Shown: piece after piece, positions 26,591 to 61,423 of the stretch
How positions within the stretch are numbered: position 1 is the stretch's first letter
How the letters are laid out: the number at the start of each line of letters is the position of its first letter
Assembly: GCF_018446385.1 (NCBI RefSeq)
Contig: NC_056003.1
Coordinates: 22,875,198-22,939,197, forward strand
From: Zingiber officinale
Taxonomy: Eukaryota > Streptophyta > Magnoliopsida > Zingiberales > Zingiberaceae
DNA: 64,000 nucleotides
Reading direction: 5' to 3'
Program-made: the position numbers and the translations under genes
The notes under the pieces: model-generated
Database searches by the model: none
Seen by the model: the letters and a program-made list of their open reading frames with translations, nothing else
Told to the model about the DNA's origin: nothing

Positions 26591-26674
26591 GTAGTAAGTT
26601 TGTGATTGAATTTATGTAAATTGTAAAAATATTTGTTCCATGAATACAGGAAGATTTGAATGAAAATTTATTAA

Positions 26675-28312
26675 GTATCAAAGACTTTCGACCCGTTCAG
26701 GCGAGTTATAAATGAGCTGAGTTCTCACGCTTCCAGACTCTTGAGTCATTCGGCCAAGTTATAAGTGAGTAAAACCTTTGCTTTAAGTGTCGAAGACTCT
26801 CGATCCATTCAGGCGAGTTATAAGTGAGCTAAGCTCTAACACCTCCAGACTCTTGAGCCGTTCGGCTAAGTTATAAGCAAGCAAAACCCTCACGCTAAGT
26901 GTCAAAGACTCTCGACCCGTTCAAGTGAGTTATAAGTAAGCTAAACTCTCACACTTCCAGACTCTTGAGCCGTTCGGCCAAGTTATAAGTGAGCAAAGCC
27001 TTTGCGTTAAATATCGAAGACTCTCGACCCTTTCGGGCAAGGTATAAGTGAGTTGAGCTCTCACGCCTCCATATCGTGAGCAATTCAGTCAAGTTATAAG
27101 CGAGCAAAGCCCTCTCACTAAGTGTCGAAGACTCTTGACCTGTTCAAGAGGGTTATAAGTGAGCAGAGCTCTCACGCCTCCAGACTCTTAAGCCATTCAA
27201 ACAAGTTTTAAGCGAGCAAAACCCTCGCGCTAAGTATCAAAAGACTCTCGCGCCATTCGGGCGAGTTTTAAGTGAGCTGAGCTCCCACACCTCCAGACTC
27301 TTGAGTCGTTCGGCCAAGTTATAAGTGAGCAAATCCTTCGCGCTAAGTGTCAAAGATTCTCGTACCATTTAGGAGAGTTATAAATGAGTTGAGCTCTCAT
27401 GGCTCCAGACTCTTGAGCCTTTTGGCCAAATTATAAGTGAGCAAAGCTCTCGCTCTAAGTGTCAAAGACTCTCGACCCGCTAGAGCAAATTATAAGTGAG
27501 TTAAGCTCTCACTCCTCTAGACTCTTGAATCGTTCGACCAAGCTATAAACAAGCAAAGCCCTCGCGGTAAGTGTCAAAGACTCTTGCGTCGTTCGGGCAA
27601 GTTATAAGTGAGATGAATTTTCACGCCTCTAGACTCTTGAGCCGTTCGGCCAAGTTATAAGCAAACAAAGCCCTCACGCTAAGTGTCAAAGACTCTCAAC
27701 CCGTTCAGGAGATTTATAAGTGAGTCAAGATCTCATATCTCCAGACTCTTGAGCCATTCAACCAAGTTATAAGCGAACAAAGCCCTCGCGCTAAGTGTCA
27801 AAGACTTTCGACCCGTTCGAAAGAGTTATAAGTGAGCCAACCTCTCACTCCTCCAGACTCTTGATCTATTCGACCAAGTTATAAGCGAGTAAAGCCCTCG
27901 TGCTAAGTGTCAAAGACTCTCACGCCGTTCGGGCGATTTATAAGTGAGCCGAGCTCTCACATCTCTAGACTCTTGAGCTGTTTGACCAAGTTATAAGTGA
28001 GCAAAACCCTCATGCTAAGTGTCAAAAACTCTCAACCCGTTCAGGTGACTTATAAGTGAGCCAAGATCTCACACCTCTAGACTCTTGAGTCCGCCGACCA
28101 AGTTATAAGCGAGCAAAGCCCTCACATTAAGTGTCAAAGACTCTCAACCTATTTGGGCGATTTATAAGTGAGCATGCTCTCAGGTCTTCAGACTCTTATG
28201 TTGTTCGACTAAGTTATAAGCAAGCAAAGCTCTCGCACCTAAGTGTCAAAGACTCTCACACCGTTTGAGCGAGTTATAAGTGAGCCAAGCTCTCACGCCT
28301 CCAGACTCTTGC
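26675..28312. repeat. 112-bp minisatellite, about 14-15 units
   Basis: Units start with AAGTGTCAAAGACTCTCG and contain CCGTTCGGGCGAGTTATAAG, TGAGCTCTCACGCCTCCAG and ACTCTTGAGCCGTTCGGCC. Starts at 26785, 26897, 27009, 27120, 27232 and 27345 give spacing of 111-113. Each unit is itself two related halves, both ending in CAAGTTATAAG or GAGTTATAAG. The array is interrupted at 28313 and its last units lie at 30491-30660. Confidence 0.92.
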
Positions 28313-30485
28313 TGTAAGATACGATAAATTAAATAATAAGTGTTATTGAAGGAATAATCTTATTAGATTTTTTGGGGGGTTTTTAGAAATTTTTGAAGAT
28401 TTAAACGGAGTTCGTATGACATGTTTAAGGGGATAAATCTATTAGGCTTATGAAAACCGGTTTAAGACATTCAGTTAAAGTGGGAGTTAATTGAGGAATT
28501 AAACTTAAGCTTTAATTGATTGAGATGTTGCATTGATGATGATCGTGTGAGTATCATGATTATTTATATTATATTCATCATTGCACTGCATACTGATGAC
28601 CATTTGTTTCCTTGTGGTACGAACTAGTCACCAGTCATATATATGTATGTTGATGACCACTTGCTCCCTTATAGTATGAGCTAGTCATCATACATGTTAG
28701 CTACCCATTCGGCCATTGTGGAAGAGTGGTAGCTAAGAGTGGAGCAAATCTTATCGTGCTCACTTGGCCACTCAGTGTTATACTTTATCCTCCTCGACCA
28801 CTAGTGAGTAGTGGGTCTGGAGGGTACAATAGTCAAGGGGCTAGAGATATGAGTAGTTAGGGACCCTGATGCTAGGGATGACAATGGGTAGGATTTCATA
28901 TCCTCCGTACTCATCCTCATTTATTATATTTATACCTATACTCATCTCCATACTCATCGGGTATTTAACTTTCATACTCATCCTTATATCCGTTGGAGTT
29001 TCGGGTATCCATATCCTACCCATCATCCTATTACTCCCTACCATTCTTATTTTTTTTTAAAAAAATATTTTGATCGGGTGAACATTTCCTGTGGAAAAGA
29101 AGATGAGATACGTGTTAATGACCGGATAAAGAGACAAACTAAGTTTTTTTCTAAGACGGAAAATATATACAGGCATCGAGTAGGGTATGGATAAGATTTT
29201 ACCACATCCACCTCCATACCCATACACGAATACCCATTTACTATAATCGGGTATAAAAATTCTCTCCATTTCCTCCTCCATTCGGGTCGGATGTTGGATT
29301 ACCCATCGGATTCGTATGAAATTATCATCCCTACCTGACGCTATGTAGCTAGATAGCTACTTAGAGAACTGTTTGCCTCAACCACTCTATTGTGGTATCT
29401 GGAGGGTAGTACAGTTATCATAGACCCAAGTCTATCAGCCATATAGGGGGCGTGATGTCTTGAGAGGTGGCGAGGGTGACTATGTGGCATGCATGCGCAT
29501 TTGCATATGATGCATAGTGCATTTATGGAAATATATCTGTAAACATATCTTATAGTTACTAGTTACATGTGATTGTGATATGTTACACTTGTTTGAGATA
29601 TGATTGTTGCATATGGTTGTCATGCTTTATACATATCATTTATCATATATGTATATGTTGTCGGTTATATTGCTCAGATGTTATGAACAAATCTGTTACT
29701 GATATCTAGTGAGTATACTGATCATTATGCCATATGTGTTAGTTCTAGATTGAGTATGTGTATTTGTTATGTTAGTTATGATTATGTGCAGTCGTTATGT
29801 TAGCTATGGTTATGTGCAGTCGTTATGTCAGTTATGGTTATGTGCATTGATTATGTCATATATAATCATGTTCTTATTTCTTACTGAGACTGTATACTTT
29901 GATCTTCACATTTATATAGACCATGTACTATTTTATCTATTATCCGCTGAGTGACCCACACTCACCACCCTGTTTGTATCTTGTCTTTTTCCTTAGGTAG
30001 CAGGTAGATGATTGTGGAGTCGCTTGGAGCATTCTATATGTTGGTCCCATGTCACATCTGAGAACAGTTTCTAGTTCTGTTTCCTATTTTACTTGCACTA
30101 TGTTTTGTGGATTTGGCACTGTATAACTTTGATTTTGTTTTGAAGTTTTGCTATGTTAGTATCTGGTATTTGTCTTGTTGCGATTGTGTAAAGTCTAACC
30201 GGCTAGTAGTTTGTGGTTCTTGATTTATGGGTCTTCCTTTCATTTTTGGCTGTGCTTTTAGTACAGTCGTATGGGCTATTTATTATACAACTGCATGGTT
30301 ATGATCATTTTGTTCCAACCGAGTGTGATGTGTATATAACTGCGTGGTTGTGTATGTTCCAGTCATGTGAGTTGTTGATTATAACTTGTGAGTAACCTTG
30401 TGACATTGTATACATATTTCATTTATCACTGTTATAGGGGAGATGCTGTCTATTTATCGGGCAGGGACTCCTTTAGGACGTGACA
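28313..30485. mobile_element. Solo LTR inside the minisatellite
   Basis: Starts TGTAAGATAC, ends ACGTGACA, flanked by CTTGC at 28308-28312 and 30486-30490. No internal retrotransposon sequence lies between these ends, so it is a solo LTR left by LTR-LTR recombination. It is 2173 bp long including an hAT element. A three-copy 28-bp repeat (GTTATGTTAGTTATG...GTGCAGTC) lies at about 29767-29850. Family not identified. Confidence 0.87.
28873..29333. mobile_element. Non-autonomous hAT element
   Basis: 461 bp with terminal inverted repeats TAGGGATGACAAT and ATTATCATCCCTA. Flanks CCTGATGC (28865-28872) and CCTGACGC (29334-29341) differ at one of eight positions, fitting an hAT 8-bp duplication. The interior holds degenerate GGGTATGGGTA-type subterminal motifs and no transposase. 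Confidence 0.8.
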
Positions 30486-30490
30486 CTTGC

Positions 30491-30790
30491 GCCACTCGGC
30501 CAAGTTATAAGTGAGAAAAACCCTCACATTAAGCATCTAAGTCTCTCGACTTGTTCGGGCAAGTTATAAGCTACCAAAGCCCTCGCGCCTAAGTATCCTA
30601 GAGTGTCGAGCTGTTTGGCCAAGTTTCGAGCACACTTAGCACTTGCACTCTGCATGACACTCATGTTAAGTAAGTGTTGAGGACAAAACGTAAAGGTTAA
30701 AAGGAATAAGAACTCTGAAATGTCAAATGGATGCACATTGAGTTAGACTTAGAAAATTCTTACAAGAGCTATTAAGTTGCCACAAAAAGT
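30491..30790. repeat. Minisatellite tail and spacer
   Basis: The last 112-bp-type units resume right after the solo LTR and fade by about 30660. The rest is non-coding spacer before the end of the antisense ORF. Confidence 0.75.
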
Positions 30791-31416
30791 TGTTGATAAA
30801 TACAAGCTAAAGCTATGCTAGATCGGCGGTTACATCATTGGGGAGTGAATCCACGACTTCTCCCTCTTGATGAACTTGTCTGAGATCTCGGTAGAGAGGT
30901 GGCCACCTTCTTTTAGCTATTGAAGGGTTCCATCGATGCCAGTCAAATAGTCGGAAGGACCGATCAGTCAGCATTTGATTAAAGCCCTCTAAACAGAGAT
31001 ACTCAACTCTGAAGGCTTCCAACCGGGTAGGCTCATCTTCTTGGAACTTGGTGAGTTGGGCCTTGGATGCCTCTAGCTCGGCCTTCAACGACTGTAGCTC
31101 GACATCCTTTTCAGTGATTTTTTGTAGGTGTTCCTCAATTTGGAGCTCGCTAGCCACTTGGTCAGTCATTCGACCAACTTGCTCCTCGGACAATGTTGCT
31201 TCTGCCTGTTGAAGTTTTTTGCCCAAGACTCAGGCTTCTTTGTTTTTCATTTCTAAGTCCTCGATGGCCTAGAGTTTCATAGCATTCACTGAGTTGATCT
31301 TGGCATTAAAATTGTGAGCCTACTTGGTCTGCTGGTCGAGCTAGAGGGCTTAATCATGATTCTTATTCTTCTCAAGCTTCAGCACCCACTCGAACCCTAG
31401 CAGTTGTTCGGAGGTC
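30790..31416 (-). pseudogene. Tat antisense extra ORF, C-terminal coiled-coil part
   Basis: The minus strand encodes a heptad-rich, charged stretch (137 residues open at 30813-31226), for example GKKLQQAEATLSEEQVGRM and DVELQSLKAELEASKAQLTK, ending NDVTADLA. This matches the coiled-coil tail of the antisense gene that many Tat-lineage elements carry between integrase and the 3' LTR. Function is unknown. The ORF continues upstream (higher coordinates) at 48648-49410 and 52786-54069, beyond insertions. Confidence 0.7.
31128..31416. repeat. 289-bp duplicated segment, left copy
   Basis: This segment is repeated in the same orientation at 48648-48936. I count 23 mismatches and no length difference. 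The left copy abuts (after AA) the left LTR of the minus-strand element; the right copy abuts the right LTR. See findings. Confidence 0.92.
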
Positions 31417-31418
31417 AA

Positions 31419-32377
31419 TGTCACGTGGCACATCAAATTAATAAAGATTAGGAACTCATTAAAATTAAGACAAGTGTTGTAGCAACGAGTCCCAAGTCGT
31501 ATTTTTTCAAGGATAACTAGTGAGTGTATATAAATTCTAGAATTGATTCAAATTGAATTCTCTCGTAAACAAGATCAATGCTTTTCCATTGGACTTACAC
31601 TTCAAATTAAATTCTTCCACAATCACAAATAGATCAAAGAAGGTCCATTCTCACCTAAACATGATTAAACTCCTGGTGGTCAAGTTAACAACAATTACTT
31701 TCGGATTCTTAAGTATCATCTCATCAAATGAGTTAATTCATATTCCTTCCATTCAAATTCACAGAAAGAAAGCAACATTGCAAACCGAAATATAATACAA
31801 TTACAATCCCAATAAACTCAAGAACTAAATACAATTGCAAACTGAAATCAACATTGCATTCATCATTACAATCCAATTCAATACTCAACTCACTTACCAA
31901 GTCTTCAATTCTTAATCACATTTAGCTAAATATCACTGAGATTAATCATGAAAATCATCAAGAAATCCATTCAACAATGAAGCATAAAAATAGTCTCAAC
32001 AGATCCAATGAATTGAACAAGGGGGTTTCCTAAATCTATAAATTGAAACTAAGCACTAACTTGTAAAGAACATGAAAGGTAATTCAAACTAGAAATTAAA
32101 ATGCAATCTACTCTATCAGATCTTTAGATCCGAGCAAGTTTAAGAACAATCCAAAGACAAAGATAAGGAAACCAAAACCTAAATGGCATTCCATAACCAA
32201 ACCCAAGACTAAACTCCTTCATCTCTGCCGTGCCACTGTGCTTGCTTTTGGGAACGCCTCTTGAGCAATCACAGCAACCCACTGATTCCATAGCGCACTC
32301 AGAAGATATCCAAAGCTACTGGGAACGCCTCTCGAGCTCAGACTTATCTGAATTCTCCAATCGACAAAGAAACAGAG
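31419..32377 (-). repeat. 3' LTR of the LARD-like element, first part
   Basis: Begins TGTCACGTGGCAC and aligns with 46639-47835. It is interrupted at 32378 by the gag-only copia element and resumes at 39715. Total LTR length without the insertion is about 1.77 kb. Confidence 0.88.
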
Positions 32378-32894
32378 TGTTGGGACCGAAAAATAGCTAG
32401 AGGGGGGGGGGGGGGGGGGGGGGAATAGCTCATCGCGTGCTTCGTGGTTGGCGTTAGTTGTTTCTTCAAAAATGTGCAGCGGAAATGTACAAGAAACAAA
32501 ATACAACGCTAACAAATGGATTTTACTTGGTTTCCACGTCACAAGAGGTGACTAATCCAAGGATCTACACACTCACGCACCCTCCACTATGAAACACACT
32601 CCTTTACGGTAACTACCGAAGGAGGAGAAGCCTTTACAAAACTCTCAATACAAGAAGAAAGGAAAGGATATGAAATACAAGCAAAAGCTTACAATAAACC
32701 CTAACCCTAACTTCTCTTCTTGCTTTTGATCCGCCTCTTGACTTGGAAGAACCTCCAAGAATCTTCAAGAACTGGCGATCTGAACTTGAGAGAGAGCTGT
32801 GGAGTTGCTGGTGAAGATCGGAGATGAATTGTGTAAGCACTGCTGAAGGAAACGCTCGCCTGCAGCTAAATACGACGCCAACGGTCGGATCCAG

Positions 32895-33262
32895 ATCGAT
32901 TGGATTGCTCCCAATCGATCGGGGAGGCTTTGGATCGATCAACCGATCGATCCAGAGTGCCTCTGTGCTCTCTGGAATAGCCTGGATCGATCGGCTGATC
33001 GATCCAGGGCTTATCACGCACAAACAACAGCTCCCAATCGATCCACTGATCGATTGGGACCACTGGATCGATCCACTGATCGATTGGGACCACTGGATCG
33101 ATCCACGAATCGATCCAAAGAGGTTATGTTCGTGGGGACTCACTCGATCGATCAGCTGATCGACTGGGCATGATCCAATCGATCGACTGATCGATCTAGA
33201 TCTGCTGGATCGATCGGCTGATCGATCCAAATCTGCTGGATCAATCAGCTGATCAATCCAGA
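32895..33262. repeat. GATCGATC dyad array in the LTR
   Basis: About nine short inverted repeats with a four-base centre, such as CTGGATCGATC/GATCGATCCAG and CCCAATCGATC/GATCGATTGGG. In most units both arms are of the same type (GG or AA flank), so the dyad symmetry survives sequence change. One unit pairs a GG arm with an AA arm, and the last unit (TCAATC on both sides) shows CG to CA decay. Confidence 0.9.
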
Positions 33263-33302
33263 TCTTGGTTTTTTGCCCAAAAGCAAGTTCAAAACCCTCT
33301 AA

Positions 33303-33776
33303 ACCAACATCCAGTCAACCATGACTTGTTGGTACATAAAACCTAGCATCCGGTCACCCTTGACAAGCTAGGACTCTCTCACCAAGTGTCTGGTCAATCC
33401 CTTTGACCCACTTGGACTTTTCTCCTCTTGCCAAGTATCCGGTCAATCCCTTTGACCTACTTGGACTTTCACCAGATGTCTGGTCAACCTTGACCCATCT
33501 GGATTTCCCCGTGCCTGGCTTCACTCACCAGGATTTCCCTTCTTCCTAGCTTCACTCACTAGGACTTTCACCTGGCTTCACTCACCAAGATTTCCCTTCT
33601 GCCTAGCTTCACTCACTAGGACTTTCACCTGGCTTCACTCACCAGGATTTTCCTTTCTGCCTAGCTTCACTCACTAGGTCTTCTCATCTGCCTAGCTTCA
33701 CTCACCAGGACTTTCACCTAGCTTCACTCACTAGGATTTCCAGTCAAGTATCCAGTCAACCTTGACCTACTTGACT
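33303..33776. repeat. Array of hairpins with changing outer stems
   Basis: Six units share a core of the form atccGGTCAA..TTGACC. Each is bracketed by a different perfect stem: ACCAAC/GTTGGT (33303-33333), CCTAGC/GCTAGG (33342-33372), CCAAGT/ACTTGG (33382-33415 and 33431-33464), CCAGAT/ATCTGG (33472-33502) and AGTCAAGTA/TACTTGACT (33742-33776). Between them (33514-33735) lie eight hairpins of the form CCTGG-cttcactca-CCAGG or CCTAG-cttcactca-CTAGG. Confidence 0.88.
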
Positions 33777-33937
33777 CTCCTTCACAATCTCCCCACATGA
33801 ACAATTGCACCTGCAATGTTCATGTGTTGTCTACAAGTATTGTCGAACATCGAAACCAAATCATCAAGACTCGAGCTTGACTCACTTCAAGCCCAGTCAA
33901 ACAGGTCAACCTTGACCTAGGGAATATTGCACCAACA

Positions 33938-36276
33938 ATCTTCCCCTTTTTGATGTTTGACAATACCACTTGTAAGTTAAACTAATCCCATAGCCTAAAC
34001 CTCCTTCATGCCACTAGGTAATGAAGGCATAAGTTAAACCCTTCATTCTCCTCCTTAGAGGGCAAACTCCCTCTAGGTAATGAAATCCTAACTTAAACCC
34101 TTCATTCTCCCCCTATTGGCACACATCAACAACATGCTCCATCCTTGGGCACACATCAACAAATTCACTTGTTGAAAATTCTCCCTTTTGAGACTCTCCC
34201 CTTGAAAAGTTGCTCATCGTTGTTCACAACTTCACTCGTTGTGATCAATACGATAATGAAAGTCTCATACCCTTCATTATCCTTAACCCTACATTCTCCC
34301 ATTAATGTAGTCAAATGCCCATCCGTGAGCTTTTTTTTTTTTTTTTTAACTTCAACCATTTGAACAATGAGGATATCCACGCCCCATTAAAGTTCAAACG
34401 CTCAACCTTGAGCATGTTCTGAAAAGAAGGTTAATCACCTTCCAAGGTTCATGAAAAAATAGTTTTCATGTCTTTAAAGAATCCCTCCCCCTAAAGACAT
34501 GGTGGTAACTTCTGTCATTGCACCAACAATGACTTGGAATTCCTAAACCTTTAGGAACCCCAAAGTTAGAAGTTTTGAGGTTCAAAAATTCAATATTGAA
34601 ATAAACCTCAACCAAAACTTCAATTTAGTCTTCCTTAACCAATCCATCCTTGTTTTCAACATGAAAAATACCTTTTTTATGTATACAAATGTATTTTTAA
34701 GGGTTTGGAATGGTTACCTAGACTAACCATGGTTCAAAAGTGCTGAAATCAGGCTTTACTAGCCAAAATCAGCAACTTCAATCGATTGGAGTTGGGTCCC
34801 AATCGATCGGACCATGCTAAATCGATCCACTGATCGATTCAGGAGGGCTAGATCGATCGGTGGATCGATCCAGACGGCTTCTGTTGGCGAGAAGCTTGCT
34901 CTCAATCGATCGCCAGATCGATTGAGACTCTTCAATCGATCGGGTGATTGATTGAGGTCCTGATATTTCTGAAATTCACTTTCAGTGAATTTCAGAAACC
35001 CCTAGAAAACTCTACAAAATTCCAAAAATCATAAAAATTTGTGTAGACATTATTTAAGGTATACTTTATCATGGAAAAATAGTTTTCTAAGAAAATACTT
35101 CATATTTTCAAAGATTGACACAAACTTGAAAACTTGCAAAAACTTTAGTGTTTTTTTCAAGTTTGTGTCTAACTATTCAATGGTGATTACTATCAAGAGA
35201 TAGCCTTCACCAAGGTTTTCCAAAATCATTTTAAAAACATTTTCAAAACCAATATCCCACCATGTTCCTTGGGCTTAATGCACATGACTTGTACATTAGC
35301 TTTCCCAATGATGGGAAAACACATAACTATGTGTTTTGATGAACTCAAAACTCAAAAGAATGCACTAAATCAACATCTTGAGTTTTGTTCATCATCCTAA
35401 CATCTCACTTGTATCTAAAGTGCACAAAACACATACAAGTCATCTTATAGGTCTTTGTGAGATGTAAAGTTTGGTTTTGCCCTAATCTAGGGATCATGCA
35501 TATTTATCTAGACATTTCGTAGATATTGGACATCCACCTAGGATGTTACTTGTTGACACACTTGTACCACTTGTTACCACTTGTTGGTAGCACTTGTTGG
35601 TACTTGTTGATAAATGTCATTTGTCCTTAATTTCAAGGAATTAAAAATAATGCATGATAATGTTATGACATACATAAAAAAGAAATAATTTTCAAAAGAA
35701 AATTTCCTATAACTACATGATGGATGTATGTCATGACATGGTATTTTTGTGTTTTTCATCATAAGGTATGAATGCAAAAATAAAACATGATGTCATGGCA
35801 TATAATGGGCAAGCAATCATGGTAAGGTTTAGCATAAATAAAATACACCTAGATTATCTATCTAAGTATCCTTAAGCTTAGCTAATCCTAAACCTTAAAC
35901 CCTAGATTGCCCAAAGTGCTTCAAGAAAGTGCCAAAACCTAAATTGGCATTTCTAACTCTCTTGATTGATTTATGCCAATTGAAATTAAGCATATTCCAT
36001 TTTCCCACAAGAGTAGCACTATAAATTAAGGCTTAGATTTGCCTTAAATTACTAAGAAAATACCAAAGTCCCAACTTGGTATTTCTTATGTTTTCCCAAA
36101 TTGTGCCAATTAAGATTAAAATCAATATCTCCGGAATCTGGCACACTTTACTCTTCCAAAGAGTAATGATAATTCTATTTCATTTTCAAAGGTTAATAAT
36201 AACCTTGAAAATGCTACTTGAGTGTCAATTTCTTCAAAGTTGGGTTAACTACCCTTCTTCTTAGAGTTGACACTCT
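33938..36276. other. Non-coding interior of the gag-only element
   Basis: This lies between the purine tract and the end of gag on the minus strand, where protease, integrase and RT would sit in an autonomous copia element. No pol motif is readable in any frame. It contains further GATCGATC-type dyads at 34779-34958, including CTCAATCGATC/GATCGATTGAG, so the dyads are not confined to the LTRs. Confidence 0.8.
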
Positions 36277-38085
36277 CTAACCCATATATGGGGTAGAGAA
36301 AATGCTCCTAGGAACCCAAAACCTATTGGTGGTCCTTGGATGCTCTAGGTATTCACTATGGATAACTTCCCTAGATACCTTCCTAGTGACCTTGTTTGGC
36401 TTCTTAGAAGCCTTGGTCATCTTTTCTAGATCAACCCTAGGGATTGCTTTCCTTGTGACCTTCTTTGTGACTTTCTTAGACTTCTTAGAAGTCTTAGTCA
36501 CATTTGTTGCAAAAATACTCTTAGGGATGACCTCCCTAGTATTTTTGGCTTGCCCACTAGACCTAGGATTGGTTCCATAGCTATATGGAACCCTATGGTA
36601 AGAAATTTCATCCTTCTTGGTTTTAGGTTTGTATCCCAAACCCTTATGACCATTGGATGACTTTGATACTTCTAGACCTAGGTTTTTACTCTTGGACCCT
36701 TGTGTCATATTTGTGATTTTTCTAAGAGTCCTCTCTAATTTATCAAGTCTTGACCTCAAGACTTGATTTTCCTTCCATAATCCCTCAACCATAGATTTTT
36801 CACTAAAATCATGACTTTTCTTTTTCTTAAGCAAATACCTAGAATCCTTAGGGTTCTTGCCTAAATTCCTATCTACCTTTCTAAACCTAGGTTGAGAGGT
36901 TTTAGCATGAAAAGCTACATGATTTTCCTTAACTTTGTCATGCCTCCTATTCTCATGATAAATAGCATTGAAATGATAGAAATTAGAACTATCATGCTTT
37001 TTACCATTTTTTAAAGGGATAGACTCAATGAATGATACTTTCCTTTTTACATTGGAGGCTCCCCCTTGAGTTGAGCTTCCTCCTTGAGCCTTAACCACCT
37101 TCTTCCCCTTAGGGCATTGACTTCGGTAATGCCCTCTTTGTTGGCACAAGAAGCATACAATGTGCTCCTTACTCTTCTTTGTTCTGGGGATGGTCTCCTT
37201 GGGCTTCTCCTTGCCCTTGGGTGCCACTTGGTCCTTCTTTTTGGCCAATTTAGGGCACTTGCTCTTGTAGTGTCCATGTTCCCTACACTCAAAACATATA
37301 ATATGATTTTTATTATTAATTGAAATATTTTTACCTTCACATGTAGGGATGGCACTTGGTCCTCCATGTGATGTGGATGTAGAGGCTTCCTCTTGATCCG
37401 AACTTAATACTCCTCCAATAGATTTATCTTGACTTGTGGAGATGGAAGCTACTTCATCCTCTTCTTCTTTTGACCCGGATATGGAGGCTTCTTCTTGCTT
37501 CGGGGTCAATGATCTACACTCCCCCTCAATCCTAGAGGTGGAGGCTTGATCTTCTTCTTCATCCTCTTGTTCATGAAACAAGGAATATGCTCCTTCCTTG
37601 CTCTTTTGGTTGCATTCCTTTGAGGATGAAGCTTCTTCTTGGACTTCTCCTTCAGAAGTTGAGCATCTCTCAACTTCGGAGTCCTCCTGTTGGTCTTGCT
37701 CCAATGAGTCACCCTCTTTGGATTCCTCTTGATTCGGTACAGTGGAGGGAATCTCATGAACTTTAGCCAATTTGCTCCAAAGATCCTTGGCATCCTTGAA
37801 CTCTCCAATTTGCTCCAAAATGTGGCTAGGCAATAGATTGACCAAAAGCTTGGTCACTTTATCATTGGCCTCACATCTTTGTATTTGTTCTTGGCTCCAT
37901 TTGCTTCTCTTGAGAATTTTGCCCTTTGAATTCTTGGGAGCTTCGAAGCCTTCCATTAGAGCAAACCATTGCTCTATCTCCACCATCAAGAAATTTTCGA
38001 TCATTGATTTCCAAAGATCGAAACTAGTAGATGTATACGGTGGAGCCACCCTTGTGTCAAATCCAAGTCCATCTTGGAATTGCAT
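36277..38085 (-). CDS. Copia-type Gag polyprotein with two zinc knuckles, no pol
   Basis: 602 residues, uninterrupted. Residues 15-112 resemble the plant copia gag (UBN2/DUF4219-like) start: APPYTSTSFDLWKSMIENFL, EQWFALMEGFE, CEANDKVTKLL and DAKDLWSKLAKVHE. An acidic Ser/Glu-rich linker (115-245) follows. Two CX2CX4HX4C zinc knuckles sit at about 264-277 (CFECREHGHYKSKC) and 311-324 (CFLCQQRGHYRSQC), which in this family bind element RNA. The C-terminal third is Lys/Arg/Ser-rich with repeated KKVTKKVTRK-type segments and ends FWVPRSIFSTPYMG, normally followed by protease in full elements; here a TAG stops it. The start lies 120 bases inside the primer site, as expected for the first ORF. Confidence 0.88.
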   Translation of the reverse strand: MQFQDGLGFDTRVAPPYTSTSFDLWKSMIENFLMVEIEQWFALMEGFEAPKNSKGKILKRSKWSQEQIQRCEANDKVTKLLVNLLPSHILEQIGEFKDAKDLWSKLAKVHEIPSTVPNQEESKEGDSLEQDQQEDSEVERCSTSEGEVQEEASSSKECNQKSKEGAYSLFHEQEDEEEDQASTSRIEGECRSLTPKQEEASISGSKEEEDEVASISTSQDKSIGGVLSSDQEEASTSTSHGGPSAIPTCEGKNISINNKNHIICFECREHGHYKSKCPKLAKKKDQVAPKGKEKPKETIPRTKKSKEHIVCFLCQQRGHYRSQCPKGKKVVKAQGGSSTQGGASNVKRKVSFIESIPLKNGKKHDSSNFYHFNAIYHENRRHDKVKENHVAFHAKTSQPRFRKVDRNLGKNPKDSRYLLKKKKSHDFSEKSMVEGLWKENQVLRSRLDKLERTLRKITNMTQGSKSKNLGLEVSKSSNGHKGLGYKPKTKKDEISYHRVPYSYGTNPRSSGQAKNTREVIPKSIFATNVTKTSKKSKKVTKKVTRKAIPRVDLEKMTKASKKPNKVTRKVSREVIHSEYLEHPRTTNRFWVPRSIFSTPYMG

Positions 38086-38204
38086 CTTGAAGATGAGTTT
38101 CTTAAATTCTTTGACTTTGATGAATTTGCTCCAACTTCTTCACCCTCTAGCTTTGCTTGTTTTGTTTGCCCCTTTCGGCGATGATTCTGGTGAAGAGCGG
38201 CCTT

Positions 38205-38216
38205 GCTCTGATACCA
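38205..38216 (-). other. Primer-binding site (initiator tRNA-Met)
   Basis: The minus strand reads TGGTATCAGAGC, an exact complement of the plant initiator tRNA-Met 3' end, two bases from the LTR boundary at 38219. Confidence 0.9.
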
Positions 38217-38218
38217 CT

Positions 38219-39709
38219 TGTTGGGACCGAAAAGTAGCTAGAGGGGGGGGGGGGGGTGAATAGCTCGTCGCGTGCTTCGTGGTTGGCATTGCTTGTTTCT
38301 TCAAAAATGTGCAGCGGAAATGTACAAGAAACAAAATACAACGCTAACAAATGGATTTTACTTGGTATCCACCTCACAAGAGGTGACTAATCCAAGGATC
38401 CACACACTCACGCACCCTCCACTATGAAACACACTCCTCTACGATAACTACCGAAGGCGGAGAAGCCTTTACAAACTCTCAATACAAGAAGAAAGGAAAG
38501 GATATGAAATACAAGCAAAAGCTTACAATAAACCCTAACCCTAACTTCTCTTCTTGCTTTTGATCCACCTCTTGACTTGGAAGAACCTCCAAGAATCTTC
38601 AAGAATTGGCGATCTGAACTTGAGAGAGAGCTGTGGAGTCGCTGGTGAAGATCGGAGATGAATCGTGTAAGCACTGCTGAAGGAAACGCTCGCCTGCAGC
38701 TAAATATGACGCCAACGGTTGGATCCCGATCGATTGGATTGATCCCAATCGATCGGGGAGGCTTTGGATCGATCAACCGATCGATCCAGAGTGCCTCTGT
38801 GCTCTCTGGAATAGCCTGGATCGATCGGCTGATCGATCCAGGGCTTATCGCTCACAAACAGCAACTCCCAATCGATCCACTGATCAATTAGGACCTCTGG
38901 ATCGATCCACGGATCGATCCAAAGAGGTTATGTTCGTGGGGACTCACCCAATCGATCAGCTGATCGATTGGGCATAATCCAATTGATCGACTGATCGATC
39001 CAGATCTGCTGGATCAATCAGCTGATCAATCCAGATCTTGGTTTTTACCCAAAAGCAAGTCCAAAGCCCCCTAAACCAACATCCAGTCAACCATGACTTG
39101 TTGGTACATAAAACCTAGCATCCGGTCACCCTTGACCAGCTAGGACTCTCTCACCAAGTGTCTGGTCAATCCCTTTGACCCACTTAGACTTTTCTCCTCT
39201 TGCCAAGTATCCGGTCAATCCCTTTGACCTACTTGGACTTTCACCAGATGTCTGGTCAACCTTGACCCATATGGATTTCCCCGTGCCTGACTTCACTCAC
39301 CAGGACTTCCCTTCTGCCTAGCTTCACTCACTAGGACTTTCACCTGGCTTCACTCACCAGGATTTCCCTTCTGCGTAGCTTCACTCACTAGGACTTTCAC
39401 CTGGCTTCACTCACCAGGATTTTCCTTTCTGCCTAGCTTCACTCACTAGGTCTTCTCATCTGCCTGGCTTCACTCACCAGGACTTTCACCTAGCTTCACT
39501 CACTAGGATTTTCAGTCAAGTATCCAGTCAACCTTGACCTACTTGACTCTCCTTCACAATCTCCCCACATGAACAATTGCACCTGCAATGTTCATGTGTT
39601 GTCTACAAGTATTGTCGAACATCGAAACCAAATCATCAAGACTCGAGCTTGACTCACTTCAAGCCCAATCAAACAGGTCAACCTTGACTTAGGGAATATT
39701 GCACCAACA
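38219..39709 (-). repeat. 5' LTR of the gag-only copia element (right copy)
   Basis: 1491 bp, TGTTGGGACC...CACCAACA. It has a run of 14 G (38243-38256), dyads at about 38725-39035, and the changing-stem and nine-base-loop hairpins at about 39075-39545, in the same order as the left copy. Confidence 0.92.
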
Positions 39710-39714
39710 CAGAG

Positions 39715-40529
39715 CACTCTTGTTGTTACCGGATTGCAAGGTGAAAATGAAGATGGATTGGTCTCTGGAGAACCGGGGAACACCCTCAACTACTCCAAAG
39801 AGAATGGCAAAAGCTCAGAATGGGGAACACCCTCAAATCTAGCTCAGATGAAGCTCACGGACAACATGATCATGAACGGGGAACACCCTCAAATCGCGGC
39901 TCTGGGCTTCGATTATTGGTCACTGGTTTGACCTCAGCTCACCGGAGAAGAAGAACTAGGTTTTCATATATGAAAATGGAATGGGAGGCTGCGGCAGGGA
40001 TGAAGAAGATGGATGAACAGTGTGGAAATCGCGAACACGCCGAGCTCGGGGAAGCACTTTAGCTTCTCAAAGCTTTTAAATCCTCTCCCAATCTGATCGG
40101 ACGGTCCAGAATGTTTCGGGCTTGATCAACGGCTGGATGAACTCAGTTCTGAATCAAAACCTCTAGATCTTCATCTACGGCTGAGATATACTCCTCATTA
40201 GGTTAGATGGCCCAGATCTTCAATGGATGACTTAGATCTGCTTGATTCTGGATGAACGACTACAATTGTTCTAGAGCTCGATCACCTAGTTTCACCCTAG
40301 ATTTGATTGTAAATGTGATCTGATTTGATCGGGTCCATGATCCTTTTGATGCCTACAAAATAATAATCAAATATTAGCATCAAATACCATGATAATAAGC
40401 CAATTTGCAATTAAGTCCAAGATCAAATGTAATTTATGAAATGTAATATAAATGTGAATTTAAGCTATGAGTAAACCATTAAAAATATGCATTATGGATC
40501 AAAATAATGTAGCAAAATCATGATTATCA
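39715..40529 (-). repeat. 3' LTR of the LARD-like element, second part
   Basis: Resumes after the CAGAG duplication and aligns with 47836-48647. It ends ATGATTATCA. A purine tract (minus strand) follows directly at 40530-40545. Confidence 0.88.
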
Positions 40530-40545
40530 AATCCCCCACACTTAA

Positions 40546-43500
40546 TCTTGGACGTCCCGTTCAAGTAAAGAAAACCAAAAATCATCTCCACACAAATTCC
40601 CTAGCAATACCTAGAAGATAATAAAAGAAATTTAATTAAGACCATCTAAATATCACAAACAACCATGAATACAATCCCAACAATAATCAGTAGGTATGAT
40701 AGTTTCAATCCAATTGAAAAATTAAGCAAGTTGCAAACTCACAAGGGATTTACCTATTCTAACTCTTACACTCAATTATGCATATAAGTGGAGCTCACTC
40801 AATGCCACTCACAACATTTCACTATCATAAGCTTGCTTATTTTCTAATTCTCCACCACTATAGAACATAGCATACATGAATCAAAAAGATTTTATCAACA
40901 AGAATTGAAATGGAATCAAGAAGAACAATTAAAGTGGATGAAATAGGCAAAAGAAAAGAATTTAGTGAAGAAAATGAGAAGATACTTGTATTGGAGGAAT
41001 ATACTTGTTGAGTTGACCAGTTTGATGTGTAAAAAGATGAATACCATTTGTTGTTACCAATTCAAAAGATCAAGCTAACCACTCCTTCAATTTGATGGCA
41101 ATCCGAAATTCTTGATACTGTATCTTCACATTTGATACACTCTTGATTTGCCATTTTTTTTCTTTACTGTTCTTCCACTTAAATTCCATCTCTTGAAAAC
41201 TCAAATAATTTCAAATCAACCTATGGAGAAGAATTCTCTCCCCCACACTTAAAATGATGTCCGTCTCGGACAATGCAACAATTCTTCCTATACAAATACT
41301 AGATACGTTTCATAATTCAACATTTTTTATTTCCTTGTTGTGTCCCATATTCAGCTACACATACCTCAGAATACATCTTCTATTTAAACAGAATTTCACA
41401 ATAAAGATTTGGCACAACTAGTAGCTTCAGATTTTTGATTCTCTCATGTAATCCTCTACTTAAACTCTGATCATACACCAATGATACAAAATAAAAAATT
41501 TTCTCTGACTAGACGATAAGGCTTCCTTGCTCCATATCAGAACTGGATTTAAAAGTTGACATAAAACAGGGTTGATCTTTGATTTCTAACACTTAATTAC
41601 AGAATCTGAATTCTAACAAAATCTGTTTACAGAATCAGCTTCAAGTTCCAGAAAATATAGCTCGGTAGCTAATTCTCAAGTCCAATGTATCAACTTACAT
41701 ATGTGCAATAACACAAAAATATAGCTTGAATATAACTTCAACTTGCTGCAATTACAAACTGCAAAACCCAAACTGCAGATTTGGTATCCAGTTTCAGTTC
41801 CCAGCTTTGTATATCTGTTTTCATCCAATTCTCAGTCTTAAATCTTGTGAACTATGGAGAAACAAAATCATCATTAAATAATGCTTGAACAACAACTGGA
41901 TTATAATTTTAAGTGATCCAATGGCTCTAAACACCAATCTAAACAGATTCTGAAATTCTGTGTCGTGAAGACTTGGCATGTTTTGGAATTTTCAGAATCC
42001 ACTCAAGCTTCAACCAATAAGATGTGCAACTACACATTTAAGAAAATAGTTTCACTGAGTTCACAGAAATCCTGCTCTTATATTTCACACATCAACTAAC
42101 AATTCTTGCTTTCCAGTTATTTTGTGAGATTGCAATTTCAGTTTTCTATCCAGTTCCAGTTTTCTTGTTCCTGATCACAAAATGGGTTGAAAGGTTGGCA
42201 TCATTTCATTACTGCACTTAATCGTTTCCTGAGATCATATTTCATAAGCTGTTCTGTAAGTCATACAAAAATTGAGCTTCAGCTCCTGTATATGCAGCAT
42301 AGTAACAAATTCCCAAGTTCAGTGTATTAAGTTTAAATGTGCCATTTAGATCTTAACGTAAGACTTCAGCTTCAACGAAATCGCAGAAGCTACACAGGAA
42401 TGAATAAGAGGTTGAATTTCAGTTGTTGCTGATCAGAATTAGCACACAGAATTGGCACTAAACAGTACAGTGCCATTGGACAATTTCAAGTTCTATATCT
42501 TGGAAATTCATGCTCTACATCATAATACTGGTTATGAAATTCCTTAGTAGAAGTGTAGGAGCATTCTCTTAGAATATTGTTATCAAAGATTGCATTAACA
42601 TTTGACTGTAGCTCTTGAATTCCAACTCTAGAAATAAATCATCTTCCTGTGGTTTTATGAAAATTTTCAGAACTCAACTGGCTCCTAATCCTTGTTGCTT
42701 CAATTTCCAGTTCAACATTTGGAATGCAAGGAAGTTCTGGCTCAAATCATTAAAAATTAAGTTATCAATTGGCTCTGTAATACAGAAATTCAAGTTCAAG
42801 TTGTAACTAGTTTGAGCCAACAGCAGGTTCGTCTACAACTCATTCATTCCAATTCTAGAATTTTGAGTTTGTCATTGATTAGCTGCATAACTCTTCATCC
42901 AGTTATCTTCATTCCTCAAAAGATTGACTCCAGCAGCTGCCCCCTCAACATAGAATCCGTACAAAGTTGAGTTTCAATTCCTGTTCTTTAAAATTAGCAA
43001 GTAAGCTTGGCACTAAACAAGACCTTGAGGACTTACTGCTCCAACTAATTACAGACTTCACATACTTCTCTTTGATATGATTTCTGATAAACAGTTGGTT
43101 CAACCTTGATACCACTTTTAAATCTGAATTCTGTTTGCTTCATTCTACAATTTATAGCCTTTCAGCCTTTTCCCACTATTCCTTCATGTGTCTTAAACAC
43201 TTGTTCCTTAGTTGGATGGAAAATGATTTCGCCTGTGCGATATATGAAACAACAACTTCCATTTCCATAAGCATTTCCTTTTCTTCCATCAAATTTACTG
43301 AATAAAATTGGACAGTTTACAGACACTGCTGTTCACTTCTCTTCTTGAAATATCTTGTAGATTGTATCCTTACTGTCAAATGCAGAAATTCTAAATTTCA
43401 AATAGCTACTTCAAATTCTGCTTACAACAAACTCTAATTACTAGCAGTGCAGTGAAGTCTTGCAGTTTCAGAATTTGAATTCCAAGTAATGGCAGGAATT

Positions 43501-46500
43501 TAATCTTCAACAATGATGTCAAAAATCTAGAGTCATAAATCAGATTCAATCCATGTTTTAGAATTCAATTTCAGAAATTGAAGTTCTAGGAAATCTTCTC
43601 TTAATCCAACTTTTCACTGATAAGAATTGGCACATGGATTCCTTACTAACATTTGCATCAAAATCAACTTCAAAACTCAGATATTTTGCAATGTAGTCAC
43701 ACAATCCAAATCCAAAACTTATATTCCCTGGAAATCCATTTTGCATGTTGAATTCTGGTTTTCCAGTTTTCAGTTTAAGCAATTAGAATTCAATGTTGTA
43801 CACTTCTTACTTGTCATATTTACGTAAAACAGTACCAGAAATCTTTAATAGTTCTTGTATTTTAAAACTCCCAAATTGAAGAACTCAGAACTAGAATTTT
43901 CAGAGTTCTGAAATCTGCTGAAATAGAACTTCACAATAATTCAGAAAGTAGGCACATCAAATTCTAGCTTGTTGTAATAAGAAAGTAGGCACATCAATCT
44001 CCACTTATATGCATGTTTGATGTTCATTTCCTGAAAATTTCAAAAACTATACTCAGTTTTCAATCTAAAAAATGTGGTTTTAGCAGGATGTTTTCCAGGT
44101 TTGAACAATCTAGCTTGTTGTAACTCATTTCCGAAGTAGGCACATCAAATTACAACTTCTAAATTCCAAAAATCAGCAACTTCTGCATTTAAATTTTGGA
44201 TTCGTAATTCAAACCAAACTAAAATAAAATAGCTCCATGAAATTCTACCACAACCAATGCTCAACATCATTAATCTCTATCAATACATCCCTTGAATTTA
44301 TTCCACCATTTCAGAATTTCCAATCAATTGAAGTAGAGAACCTCCATAAACTCAAAACATGTGAGCTTTAAATGTATCAACATAGTATCAAGTCTCTAAA
44401 TCCAAAGAAATTGTGGCTTGCTCTTGACATGATAAAACTCAAGAAATGGATACATTTAGCATACAATCTTAAGAGCACTTCATTCTTAACAACATTTTCA
44501 GCATTTTCTTTTTCGGAATAGTAGAAACTCCATCATTGGCTTGACTTTGAATCCCGACCATTAACAATTGTATCCAAACCTTCAAAAATACTACTCACCT
44601 CCCCCACACTTAATCCTTTGTCCACATCTTGGTAAAACTAACTCATCAGGGATATTATCCACACTCTCAATGAAAGAATAACAAGCAAAGTGATCAAGAG
44701 TTAGAATACTAGATGAGAATGCTTAAAGAAAATTGTGGGGAAAGAAATTGGAATTTATGATGGAACAAGAATAAGAAATATCCTTTATCTCCATGTACAC
44801 AAATGCTATTGTGACCTTGAAAAGAAACTAAGCAAGTTATAGAGTTCAATTGTTATGAGTACATGTCACACAAAAATATAATAGAGGATAGGTTTAAAGT
44901 GGCACTTTCTAGGTAATTTTCATGCAATCAAGCTTAATCAATCAAAATAGAATCCACCACCATACTAACCAATATCATGTAAGTAGAGCATCCAATAATG
45001 TCTAATGACCTAAAATTGATGATCAAATTTAAGAGACTTTTACCATCTTAAAAATATTACTAGAACAATTCATGGATAATTTATTTGAAAATGAAATGCT
45101 ATATAAACTAAACAAAATGCAAAATATGGAAACAAAATACAAATGTAAAGTATTAAACTAAAGAAAATTGCCCACAAAGAATTTATTAACAAAGCACGAA
45201 TTAAAATGCATAAAAAAAGAAATTGGAACCAACTCCCCTTTAATTCTGGGCGGTTGAAGAAGATTAAAAAGAAGAATCCACGCCGATAGAGGTGTCATTG
45301 TGGTTCCACTCAAATTCTTTTTATTCTTCATTTTTCTATTGCAAATTCTTTCTGGAGGACAGAGGCGGTTCAGTTCAAGCATCCACTCCGGGAGCTTGTA
45401 TTCTCCTACAACATCATTAAAAGAAAACACCTCCTACATGTATGTGGGATAAGAAGAAAATAGGAGAATATTAGTGTGGGTAAAATATATATCAAGAAAT
45501 GAATCACATCTAATAAAATCAACAATTGGTACATTTATTAAATTTTTTGAAAAATCACAAAAAAATACTCACCTTGTCATGGTGAAAGGTATCTAGAGTG
45601 GTGTTTGTTACCTCCTTTTCATCAAGTAACGACACAAGCTCTGGCTCTGGAGAATGTACAAACAAAGGTAGTGATTCTTGAGTACTTGGCTCCATAGCAC
45701 AAGTCCCTACACTCTCTTCATCATCATCATCATCAAATCCAGGTGGTCCTTAGGGTATTGCTTCCAGTAAGCAATCCTCTACACTTAAATTCTCTTCAGG
45801 TAAATTTTCAATTCTTGCATCTTCAACAACATCTAAAGCAACACTATTAGCAGAGTCAAAAGTATGTTCAACTACATTATCACAACAATAAAAAGTACTT
45901 AAAGAATCTAGTGAAGTAGTAGATGCAATGTCAGGCCTGACAAGAGCTCCACAATCACCTCCTCACTGGCGCTTTGTGTTTGTAACTGAATAATGGATGA
46001 TGCAATTTGATCTAACTGACTCTATATATTTTGTATCCTTGAGAATTGCTGCTCTCTCATTTGTTGCATAATCTCCTTGATTTTCCATGTTGACTCATCC
46101 AATTGATGATCATTTTGTTGAAAAGGATGTTGCAAAGAAGATGTCGAAACCTCTTGAAACCCATATGAATTTTGATAGGCTGGATATGACTCAATAAATT
46201 GTCCTTGTGCACTTTCATACCTGAAACATGAATTATCCACCCAATTAGCGTTATAAGCATTAGAAAATGACTCATACCTATTTTATTGTTCCATTGTTGG
46301 GTAAATTTGATACTCAGGCTGAAAATACTGATTTTCCATTCCACCTCCAAAATTCTGAAAATATAGATCCATGCTTCTGAAATCTCCTGTTCTTACACTA
46401 CACACTAACAATCAATGTTAGAAGATTCAAGAGCATAAAGTTTCAAACACATGAAAATATGAACATTTAAGGCACTTAACAATTCAAGAATAAGCCAACA

Positions 46501-46596
46501 TGTAAACACAAAAGATAAGCAATCAAAACAAGAAATATGCTAACAAAATAAAATCAATCAATGCTCAATCTAAAATAAACATACACTACTAATTAT
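40546..46596 (-). other. Interior of the LARD-like element
   Basis: About 6 kb with no recognisable pol. Near the 5' side (minus strand) there are short gag-like remnants: a 72-residue stretch at 46022-46240 with a Gln/Tyr/Ser-rich sequence ending in a short helix (WKIKEIMQQMREQQ), an acidic patch encoded near 45730-45750 (five Asp in a row), and a 90-residue stretch at 45158-45430 of unknown identity. From 40600 to 44600 the sequence is AT-rich with recurring CAGAATTC/AAATTC words and no long frames. I see no host gene in it. Confidence 0.65.
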
Positions 46597-46618
46597 TTCC
46601 CCGGCAATGATGCCAAAA
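46597..46618 (-). other. Primer-binding site of the LARD-like element
   Basis: The minus strand TTTTGGCATCATTGCCGGGG differs from TGGCGCCGTTGCCGGGGA mainly at CpG-derived positions. It starts about 20 bases inside the LTR boundary at 46639. Confidence 0.7.
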
Positions 46619-46638
46619 TTTGGGTTGGCCATTTTGCA

Positions 46639-49410: not shown

Positions 49411-49415
49411 GAGTA

Positions 49416-59901: not shown

Positions 59902-61390
59902 TGTTGGTGCAACATCCCTCAGGTCAAGATTGACCTGGTTGACCAAGCTTGAGTCTTGGTTTGAGTTTCGATGTTTGACAATACAAGGTTGATTGAAGAA
60001 GAGTCAAGTAGGTCAAGGATGACCAGATACTTGACTGGGAAGTCCTAATTGGGATATTAGGCAGAAGGAAAGACCCAGTGAGTGAAGCTAGGTGAAAGTC
60101 TTGGTGAGTGAAGCCAGACACAAGAAAATCCTGGTGAGTGAAGCCAGGTGAAAATCCTAGTGAGTGAAGCTAGTTGAAAATCCTGGTGAGTGAAGCCAGG
60201 TGAAAATCCTAGTGAGTGAAGCTAGGTTAAAGACCTGGTGAGTGAAGCCAGACAGAAGAGAAGTCCTAGTGAGTGAAGCTAGGCAGATTGGAAGTCCTGG
60301 TGAGTGAAGCCAGGCACGGAGAGATTCAGATGGGTCAAGGTCGACCAGACATCTGGTGAAAGTCCAAGTAGGTCAAGGTAGTGACTGGATACTTGGCAAG
60401 ATGAAGAAAAGTCCAAGTGGGTCAAAGGGAGTGACCGGACACTTGGTGAGGGAGTCCTAGTAGGTCAAGGGTGACCGGATGCTAGGCATGGTGAACCAAC
60501 ATGTCAAGGTTGACCGGATGTTTGTTTGGGAGGCTTGGGACTTGGTTTTGGGCAAAAACCAGAACCCGAATCGATCAGCCGATCGATTGGCTGGAGCCCA
60601 ATCGATCGGTTGATCGATTGGGGCGTCCCTGCGAGAAGCCTTCGTCCCAATCGATCAGTGGATCGATTGGGAGGAAGTCGCGAGCACACAGAATGCCTCT
60701 GGATCGATCAGCCGATCGTTCCAGAGGTCCCAATCGATCAGTTGATCGATTGGGAAGGTGTTGTATGTCGCGAAAAGCCCTGGATCGATTAGCTGATCGA
60801 TCCAGGAGAATTTCCAGAGCACAGAGGTGCTCTGGATCGATCCGTGGATCGATCCAAAGCCTCCCCGATCGATTGGGAGCAATCCAATCGATCGGGATCC
60901 GGCCGTTGGCGCAGATAAAGGCCGTTGGTGTGCATCTTCTTCGGCAGAACTTCTACTGTTCAATCACGATCTTCACCAGCAACTCTACAACTCTCACTAA
61001 GCTCCAGATCGCCAGTTCTTGAAGGTTCTTCCAAGTCAAGAGGCGGATCAAAAACAAGAAGAAGAAGCTAGGGTTAGGGCTTTTGTACTCATTGTAAGCT
61101 TGTGCTTATATTTCATTACCTTTCCCTTTCTTCTTGTATTGAGAGTCTTGTAGGGCTTCTCCGCCTTTGGTAGTTACCATAAAGGAGTGTTTCATAGTGG
61201 AGGGTGCGTGAGTAGGTGTGGATCCTTGGACTAGTCACCTCTTGTGAGGTGGATACCAAGTAAACCATCCTTGTTAGCGTTGCGTGTTTTTGTTTCTTGT
61301 ATTTCAGCTGCATATCTCTGAAGAAACAAGCAACGATGAGCACCTAGCACGCGATGAGCTATTCACCCCCCTCTAGCTACTTTTTGGTCA
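59902..61390 (+). repeat. LTR related to that of the gag-only copia element
   Basis: Starts TGTTGGTGCAACATCC and runs to TTTTTGGTCA at 61390; it is the reverse-oriented, diverged relative of 38219-39709. The last bases (CCCAACA in the intact copies) are replaced, and no target duplication is visible, so it is truncated or chimeric. It keeps the same inner order: changing-stem hairpins (60000-60060 and 60330-60520), nine-base-loop hairpins (60075-60315), GATCGATC dyads (60571-60900) and a run of six C near 61366. Confidence 0.78.
60571..60900. repeat. GATCGATC dyad array
   Basis: Seven dyads such as CCCAATCGATC/GATCGATTGGG (four-base centres GGTT, AGTG, AGTT) and CTGGATCGATT/GATCGATCCAG. By eye all seven have arms of matching type. 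Several frames stay open across it, giving Arg/Ser/Ile/Asp-rich translations that are not real proteins. Confidence 0.9.
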
Positions 61391-61423
61391 TTTGAATTGG
61401 ACAATCCTAGATAACTCTCTTTT
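61391..61423. other. Short host segment of another gypsy-type element
   Basis: The 33 bases before the solo LTR continue, after the LTR and its CTTTT duplication, at 63874. Together they form the sequence leading to a purine tract near 63966. Confidence 0.5.

Follow-up and report, generated by a model that had tools for sequence, protein, structure and literature searches.

Palindromic repeats in the LTR are a published trait of Sireviruses. In the parts of their description covered here (Bousios et al. 2010, PMC2829016), the primer binding site (PBS) TATCAGAGC follows the CA of the LTR and a 5-nt spacer, ATTGG or AGTGG, and the polypurine tract (PPT) AGGGGGAG starts 10 bp ahead of the 3′ LTR, the junction being AT/TG; a variant with a terminal G is given for two elements, and extra PPT octamers are reported as rare outside the linker. 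The same parts describe an inverted repeat with a mean start 28 bp into the LTR, and palindromic repeated motifs (8–32 per element and 3–14 per 3′ LTR, concentrated in the upper half) that mainly matched sites of stress-related factors. Later work, as far as the covered portions of PMC5311732 and PMC10760457 go, links Sirevirus palindromes to folding and small RNAs. Template switching that creates or maintains hairpins has been proposed for DNA replication in the covered part of PMC8794818.

The locus described here lies in a window of 64,000 nucleotides of Zingiber officinale DNA, the whole stretch that was analysed. An earlier note on this DNA had described an LTR built from hairpins whose stems change together and knew of no described LTR of such architecture; given the published Sirevirus arrays, that statement is not supported. 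The array belongs to this known architecture, and the more surprising fact is the hairpin load of the element as a whole.

Layout of the element and its Sirevirus traits

The insertion (32378–39709, minus strand) is a gag-only copia LTR retrotransposon flanked at each end by a CAGAG target-site duplication. The region 33303–33776, taken in the earlier note for an LTR, does lie within one, but is only a part of the U3 of a longer, minus-strand LTR (Table 1). The element is inserted in another repeat (31645–32377 and 39709–40527), of which an uninterrupted copy (47101–48645, 93–96% alike) is found about 7 kb away; its unoccupied version of the target lies near 47827. Two tandem arrays were also found by self-comparison in the window, at 26671–28311 (period about 112 bp) and 50857–51993 (period roughly 145–150 bp).

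Table 1. Positions of the element, its LTRs and their hairpin arrays in the window
Feature	Position	Strand	Basis or remark
3′ LTR, TGTTGG...CCAACA, holding the array	32378..33937 (1560 bp)	−	self-comparison, boundaries, CAGAG target-site duplication
ATCGAT palindromes (class III), downstream U3	32894..33261	−	
Array in U3: six class I hairpins, class II between	33303..33776	−	
Eight class II hairpins CCTRG-T-GAGTGAA-G-CYAGG, CCTAG and CCTGG types alternating	33513..33736	−	
Non-coding linker (about 2.3 kb) with PPT octamers; inverted repeat around the PPT/LTR junction	33938..36276	−	
Terminal PPT AGGGGAAG, then AT/TG	33940..33947	−	
gag ORF (620 aa) with CCHC zinc knuckle and weak copia-type gag match	36277..38139	−	Pfam; hairpin excess over synonymous shuffles
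PBS TATCAGAGC after AGTGG spacer	38205..38213	−	
5′ LTR	38219..39709	−	K2P 0.0345 versus 3′ LTR
Array in 5′ LTR matching that of the 3′ LTR	39075..39548	−	
Third LTR copy, diverged, solitary, final bases absent	59902..61390	+	K2P 0.19

The internal region between the LTRs (4281 bp) consists of the gag ORF followed by the linker. The gag ORF matches the CCHC zinc knuckle with an E-value of 1.4e-7 and the copia gag family below threshold (E 3e-4). None of the eight minus-strand linker ORFs of at least 45 aa matches a Pfam family; as gag is thus the sole Pfam match in the 4281 bp, no trace of pol was found. A protein search returned no gag homologue at E ≤ 0.001 among 7197 candidates, and none of 11 pattern matches in viral contigs was a relative. 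Ten other ORFs of the window comprise an Exo70 ORF, a SWIB-protein ORF, one with a weak gypsy-type match and seven with no match.

The PBS junction reads CAACA-AGTGG-TATCAGAGC, as in the published definition. The terminal PPT differs from AGGGGGAG by one mismatch, which is not that of the published terminal-G variant, and is found in the expected place with AT/TG following. Measured from the 3′ LTR, exact AGGGGGAG octamers occur at 169 and 547 nt, both in the linker, and two more at 3121 and 3581 nt, inside gag. The inverted repeat around the PPT/3′ LTR junction has 20-nt arms with three mismatches; its left arm borders the PPT, and its right arm corresponds to LTR positions 82–102. The palindrome arrays, with at least eight motifs, occupy positions 160–640 and 677–1044 of the 1560-bp LTR and lack the CGG-CCG core, as does Tnd-1. 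Runs of C followed by TCTAGCTA were seen by eye in the last 50 nt of the LTR. Apart from the mismatch in the terminal PPT and the two octamers inside gag, these signals fit the published definitions, and the element resembles, and most likely is, a non-autonomous Sirevirus.

Hairpin classes of U3 and matched change between units

A class I unit, read in the sense direction, opens with an outer arm of 7–9 nt and a GTCA-centred core; after a short loop come TGAC(C/T), the three nucleotides RGA and the arm that matches the first. Six such units occur per LTR in each of the three copies, and none of the 18 has lost the one-sided RGA bulge. The least variable part is an inverted pair of TTGACY hexamers, which we take to be W-boxes, bound by WRKY factors. 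The opening 640 nt of the 5′ LTR hold 15 of these hexamers, where 1.2 would be expected (maximum of 5 in 500 controls), and the class I cores look like candidate sequence-specific regulatory sites. What the outer stems, the class II hairpins and most linker and gag hairpins have in common is self-complementarity over a short distance, with no obvious shared sequence. In unit 1 the matching arms reach into the flanking AGT common to other units.

Class II hairpins number eight in each LTR of the element and nine in the third copy near 60 kb (25 in total); together with the ATCGAT palindromes they take up a large share of the U3 not covered by class I. Their varying pair is A-T in 12, G-C in 12 and G-T in one; a reading as many independent compensations was rejected, the alternation of the two types being better read as duplication, as a dimer, of one paired change. 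The ATCGAT block of the 3′ LTR (32894–33261) contains 30- and 31-nt repeats that are missing from the 5′ LTR and the third copy, representing either a duplication in one LTR after insertion or a loss in the other. The arms quoted in the earlier note are present at 33303–33776, at 39075–39545 and, inverted, at about 60000–60525, some with one-base damage in one copy. Its count of six units is right for class I, but it is an undercount, six being a minority once the class II and ATCGAT hairpins are included. No Rfam family matched at the gathering score, and four stretches of viral contigs with the class II pattern were taken for chance. By eye, it seemed unlikely that the array derives from coding sequence.

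The class I units were aligned as six positions in three LTR copies (18 units, 15 distinct rows, 180 cells). Standard pairs fill 96.1% of the cells, compared with 83.6 ± 1.4% when the 3′ letters are redealt among the sequences (0/500 reach the observed value) and 17–36% when the partners are slid. Between units, two-sided change is found in 7 of 12 pairs, and the outer stem accounts for six of these, out of its seven. The 15 distinct rows are invariant at three core pairs, GTC with GAC. The covariation score is 0.454, against 0.201 ± 0.025 in shuffles (0/500) and 0.03–0.14 with slid partners, while the number of further pair types is unexceptional (13 versus 11.7 in shuffles, 121/500); the rows are related, so that all of these counts overstate the independent events. 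When each position is represented by a single, hand-chosen arm pair, all 42 pairs are Watson-Crick except for a single G-U, and the resulting 41 is reached only by the true assignment of the 720; the 5′ arm for unit 5 was taken here from the 60-kb copy, a T-T mismatch being present in the two others. These data support the conclusion that arm pairing was kept or restored as the units diversified, which the composition and sliding controls fail to give. The proposal that pairing is kept or the arms are homogenised is therefore upheld between tandem units, but not as regards RNA pairing as the selected trait (see below).

When the class I and II stems of the three LTR copies were compared pair by pair, no change was clearly compensated, and among these three copies the covariation from copy to copy to which the earlier note had looked was not borne out. 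The element's own two LTRs differ at seven class I and II stem sites, all one-sided. Relative to the 60-kb copy, no class I pair has a compensated change; some of the one-sided changes keep a G-U pair and others break the pair. Eight class II units of the 60-kb copy align with the 5′ LTR, and one of them has a matched two-sided difference (CCTAG/CTAGG versus CCTGG/CCAGG), for which a register shift is as likely, because the unit numbers differ and neighbours of both types are present.

The outer arms changed less than R-U5 between the two LTR subfamilies (6/86 versus 82/444 sites, Fisher p 0.007), which suggests constraint on these arms; core arms (9/69) and the spacers between units (11/62) are not clearly different from R-U5. 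The 5′ LTR and the 60-kb copy differ by five U3 segments of at least 16 nt. By raw count, three of them are, or complete, a hairpin; the remaining two are a class II unit and a segment that touches a palindrome arm. One segment has an extra GCTTGA immediately before TCAAGC, its reverse complement. The segments at 33880–33895 and 33794–33836, both with counterparts in the partner LTR and both absent from the third copy, comprise one hairpin and one that completes a hairpin. The occurrence of whole hairpins in one LTR subfamily that are missing from another, whether gained or lost, is compatible with hairpin-templated copying.

Hairpin load and folding across the element

The whole window was scanned for near-perfect hairpins with a score of at least 8 and loops of 3–40 nt. 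The segment 32001–40000 contains 51 hairpins against 5.8 expected, 40001–50000 contains 9 against 10.5, and 59001–62000, with the third LTR and an ATCGAT block, 22 against 2.0; the rest of the window has 91 against 55.6. The linker alone holds 32 hairpins, compared with 9.6 in Markov controls, and by eye these look unrelated in sequence except for three of ATCGAT type. Its perfect stems reach 16 bp, and one of 15 bp has a 3-nt loop. For perfect arms of at least 8 nt in the linker, the excess declines with loop length, as snap-back predicts: 9 against 0.27 for loops of 3–10 nt, 6 against 0.43 (11–20), 9 against 1.1 (21–40), 8 against 2.9 (41–80), 13 against 5.0 (81–160) and 10 against 9.0 (161–320). 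The gag ORF contains 15 hairpins. Synonymous shuffling gives 6.8 (0/600), and shuffling that preserves the dinucleotides at codon boundaries as well gives 7.2 (1/600); the stringent set has 9 against 2.2 and 2.5 in the two shuffles (0/600 each).

R-U5 contains two hairpins against 0.8, where the gag or linker rate would itself give only 4–7. The flanks, with loops up to 40 nt, have no excess (3 versus 2.8 in 29000–32377; 2 versus 2.8 in 39710–43000), nor does 40528–50500 (6 versus 8.7). The Exo70 ORF control has no hairpin excess, and the SWIB-protein ORF is borderline, with 3 against 0.8 in the stringent set (3/100). A genic control (13510–18909), comprising the Exo70 and SWIB-domain ORFs and the region between them, has a weaker excess (10 versus 2.8, loops 3–40), so that, given also the 91 against 55.6 outside the element, some of the signal may not be specific to the element. 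The excess spans U3, linker and gag, and is not clearly present in R-U5. An explanation confined to the LTR was rejected because the excess extends into the linker and gag, and base composition was rejected as the cause because Markov, dinucleotide and codon shuffles fall short.

Two hairpin-rich segments lie on either side of the third LTR. The ATCGAT block at 61600–62030 (eight hairpins, 46% of bases in arms) is not part of that LTR copy and seems to belong to another repeat; with the three ATCGAT hairpins of the linker, it indicates that class III is not confined to the LTR. Four perfect hairpins with loops of 3–5 nt, one enclosing TATATTTATA, are found at 59640–59830; they are unlike the classes described above and are perhaps another hairpin-bearing LTR.

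Folding z-scores were calculated with a span limit of 70 against shuffles (codon shuffles for gag). The sense values are −9.3 for U3, −10.9 for the linker, −8.8 for gag and +0.2 for R-U5; the antisense values are −7.2, −9.5, −10.6 and −0.4 respectively. The controls gave −1.8 (sense) and 0.2 (antisense) for the Exo70 ORF and −1.1 and −2.4 for 29000–31600. Folding is not specific to the sense strand, the difference between strands being within about one shuffle standard deviation in U3, linker and gag; a sense bias as the mark of genome-scale ordered RNA structure is our own expectation. With G-U pairs forbidden, the z-scores become larger (gag −12.5, linker −11.9, U3 −9.7). Fragments of 350 nt have a mean folding excess of 41.7% (linker), 39.5% (U3) and 22.9% (gag, 21 fragments), compared with 4.2% in the Exo70 ORF; R-U5 reaches 14.5% (three fragments) without the span limit, so that its lack of excess holds for local hairpins only. 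By a similar, though not identical, method, the covered part of PMC7642675 gives mean values for viruses of 7.5–10.7% (HCV), about 15% (SARS-CoV-2) and at most 23.4%. The gag values thus include a folding excess of the coding region over composition-matched shuffles.

Among 871 pairs, 25 (2.9%) are interrupted: 8 by G-U, 5 by A-C and 12 by other combinations. This level is near the 3.5% expected from decay after insertion (LTR distance 0.0345), which implies near-perfect stems in the parent, although the figure is biased low because hairpin detection favours perfect stems. G-U is not significantly in excess over A-C (8 versus 5; 9 versus 4 in class I and II units), although both counts lean that way.

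Origin of the hairpins and comparison with known systems

Hairpin-templated copying accounts best for the data, since the hairpin excess pervades most of the element; stems that were near-perfect in the parent, in a region that folds similarly on both strands, are the trace that it would leave. The earlier note's option of hairpin-templated repair is to that extent favoured, but no template-switch event was caught between the copies. Our leading account, offered tentatively and at slightly less than an even chance, is that a Sirevirus-type, gag-only copia element carries a cis-regulatory palindrome array in U3, whose hairpins were made or re-perfected by hairpin-templated copying combined with selection on the W-box cores. 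Template switching onto the other arm or onto the nascent strand would both create hairpins and re-perfect them, most plausibly during single-stranded cDNA synthesis by reverse transcriptase, a stage that we infer. A mutation in one arm would be copied into the other, or erased; tandem duplication would spread the units; and selection would retain units with activator-binding cores (W-boxes, WRKY) and tolerated copying. A broader version is possible, though well short of an even chance: the element's own replication would write palindromes, switching by reverse transcriptase would fill U3, linker and gag codons, and Sirevirus LTR palindromes would be the selected tip. Several observations count against copying. 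The RGA bulge is kept, although a copy of the whole arm would erase it, and R-U5 is quiet despite the same reverse transcriptase. The asymmetry proposed for intrastrand switching (G-C over C-G, U-A over A-U) is absent (GC 109, CG 115; TA 164, AT 202), and no loop inversion is visible by eye in the class I units.

The main rival is selection on the folded RNA of the element, for compactness in packaging, dimerisation or shielding, as in RNA viruses with ordered genomes. The high folding excess of 350-nt fragments in gag, linker and U3 relative to the Exo70 ORF speaks for it, as do the persistence of the gag excess under protein- and codon-preserving shuffles and the one-sided RGA bulge, a structural rather than palindromic feature. 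Against it, the antisense strand folds as strongly relative to its own shuffles, the z-scores rise when G-U pairs are forbidden, G-U does not significantly exceed A-C among interrupted pairs, and the three copies have no clear compensated change between them; we consider it rather unlikely. On the first and third of these grounds, RNA pairing as the selected trait, suggested in the earlier note, is not supported.

If selection acted instead on palindromes in double-stranded DNA, as sites for dimer-binding transcription factors (inverted W-boxes, ATCGAT boxes) with the outer stems included, then the symmetry between strands, the 15 W-box hexamers in 640 nt and the three invariant GTC/GAC core pairs would be accounted for. 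The stress-factor sites in Sirevirus motifs (PMC2829016) and the WRKY binding to W-boxes reported in the EVADE LTR (PMC12786077) would agree with this in the parts of those papers covered. A factor requires a sequence, yet the outer stems vary and keep only complementarity, and the linker and gag hairpins, whose sequences are different, are left unexplained, which makes this account improbable. Tandem duplication on its own, amplifying a few chance hairpins with nothing to maintain pairing, would explain why the CCTAG/CCTGG alternation resembles a duplicated dimer, whose single varying pair may be one event, why differences between the element's two LTRs touch one arm only, and why the 3′ LTR has 30- and 31-nt repeats that its partner lacks. 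The class I positions, however, differ at six of seven stem pairs with matching partners, the outer arms differ less between subfamilies than R-U5, and again the linker and gag-codon hairpins are not covered; such a history, too, is improbable.

Claims of functional RNA structure usually rest on covariation, which here accompanies hairpins that are strand-symmetric and present in both coding and non-coding DNA. A mutational origin of covariation is a live alternative that can be tested in genomes with many copies. If replication does write palindromes, paired change would be a mutational signature and no proof of a functional RNA fold. Hairpin-templated copying could also explain the origin of Sirevirus palindromes, which in maize are small-RNA hotspots, and the inverted W-boxes provide a concrete activator hypothesis for the LTR described here.

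With the template-switch hairpins of PMC8794818, as far as the covered part goes, this locus shares perfect stems of diverse sequence, short loops and matched arm changes; there, switching is described for the DNA replication of RNA genes and not for LTR retrotransposons or reverse transcription. With the genome-scale ordered structure of RNA viruses, as described in the covered part of PMC7642675, it shares consecutive stem-loops through coding and non-coding RNA. Unlike that structure, it belongs to a plant retroelement, both strands are similarly structured and the stems detected are nearly all Watson-Crick. The LTR palindromes of maize, known here from a 2016 study through the covered parts of PMC5311732 and PMC10760457, likewise form a palindrome-rich, variable and foldable region, which is a reported small-RNA hotspot, and the palindrome cited there, CACCGGAC-GTCCGGTG, is different from the units here. 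Among the matches listed in a literature search, no title or abstract opening mentioned matched arm change in LTR hairpins, which may be in the 2016 maize study, or a hairpin load in the gag of LTR retrotransposons; the words "gag" and "compensatory" do not occur in the maize folding paper (PMC10760457).

A further comparison is with the Sireviruses themselves. In the parts of PMC2829016 covered, they share with this element the PBS with its spacer variant, the extra PPTs, the AT/TG junction, the inverted repeat at the PPT and the poly-C, and their LTR motifs share the presence of at least eight palindromic units, mostly in the upper LTR half; the ATCGAT palindromes recall the Tnd-1 motif ACAATCGATTGT. 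The published motifs have one fairly uniform sequence per element, with a CGG-CCG core except in Tnd-1. In contrast, the element described here has three classes of hairpin, a core made of W-boxes and stems that vary between units, and its hairpins continue into the linker and the codons of gag.
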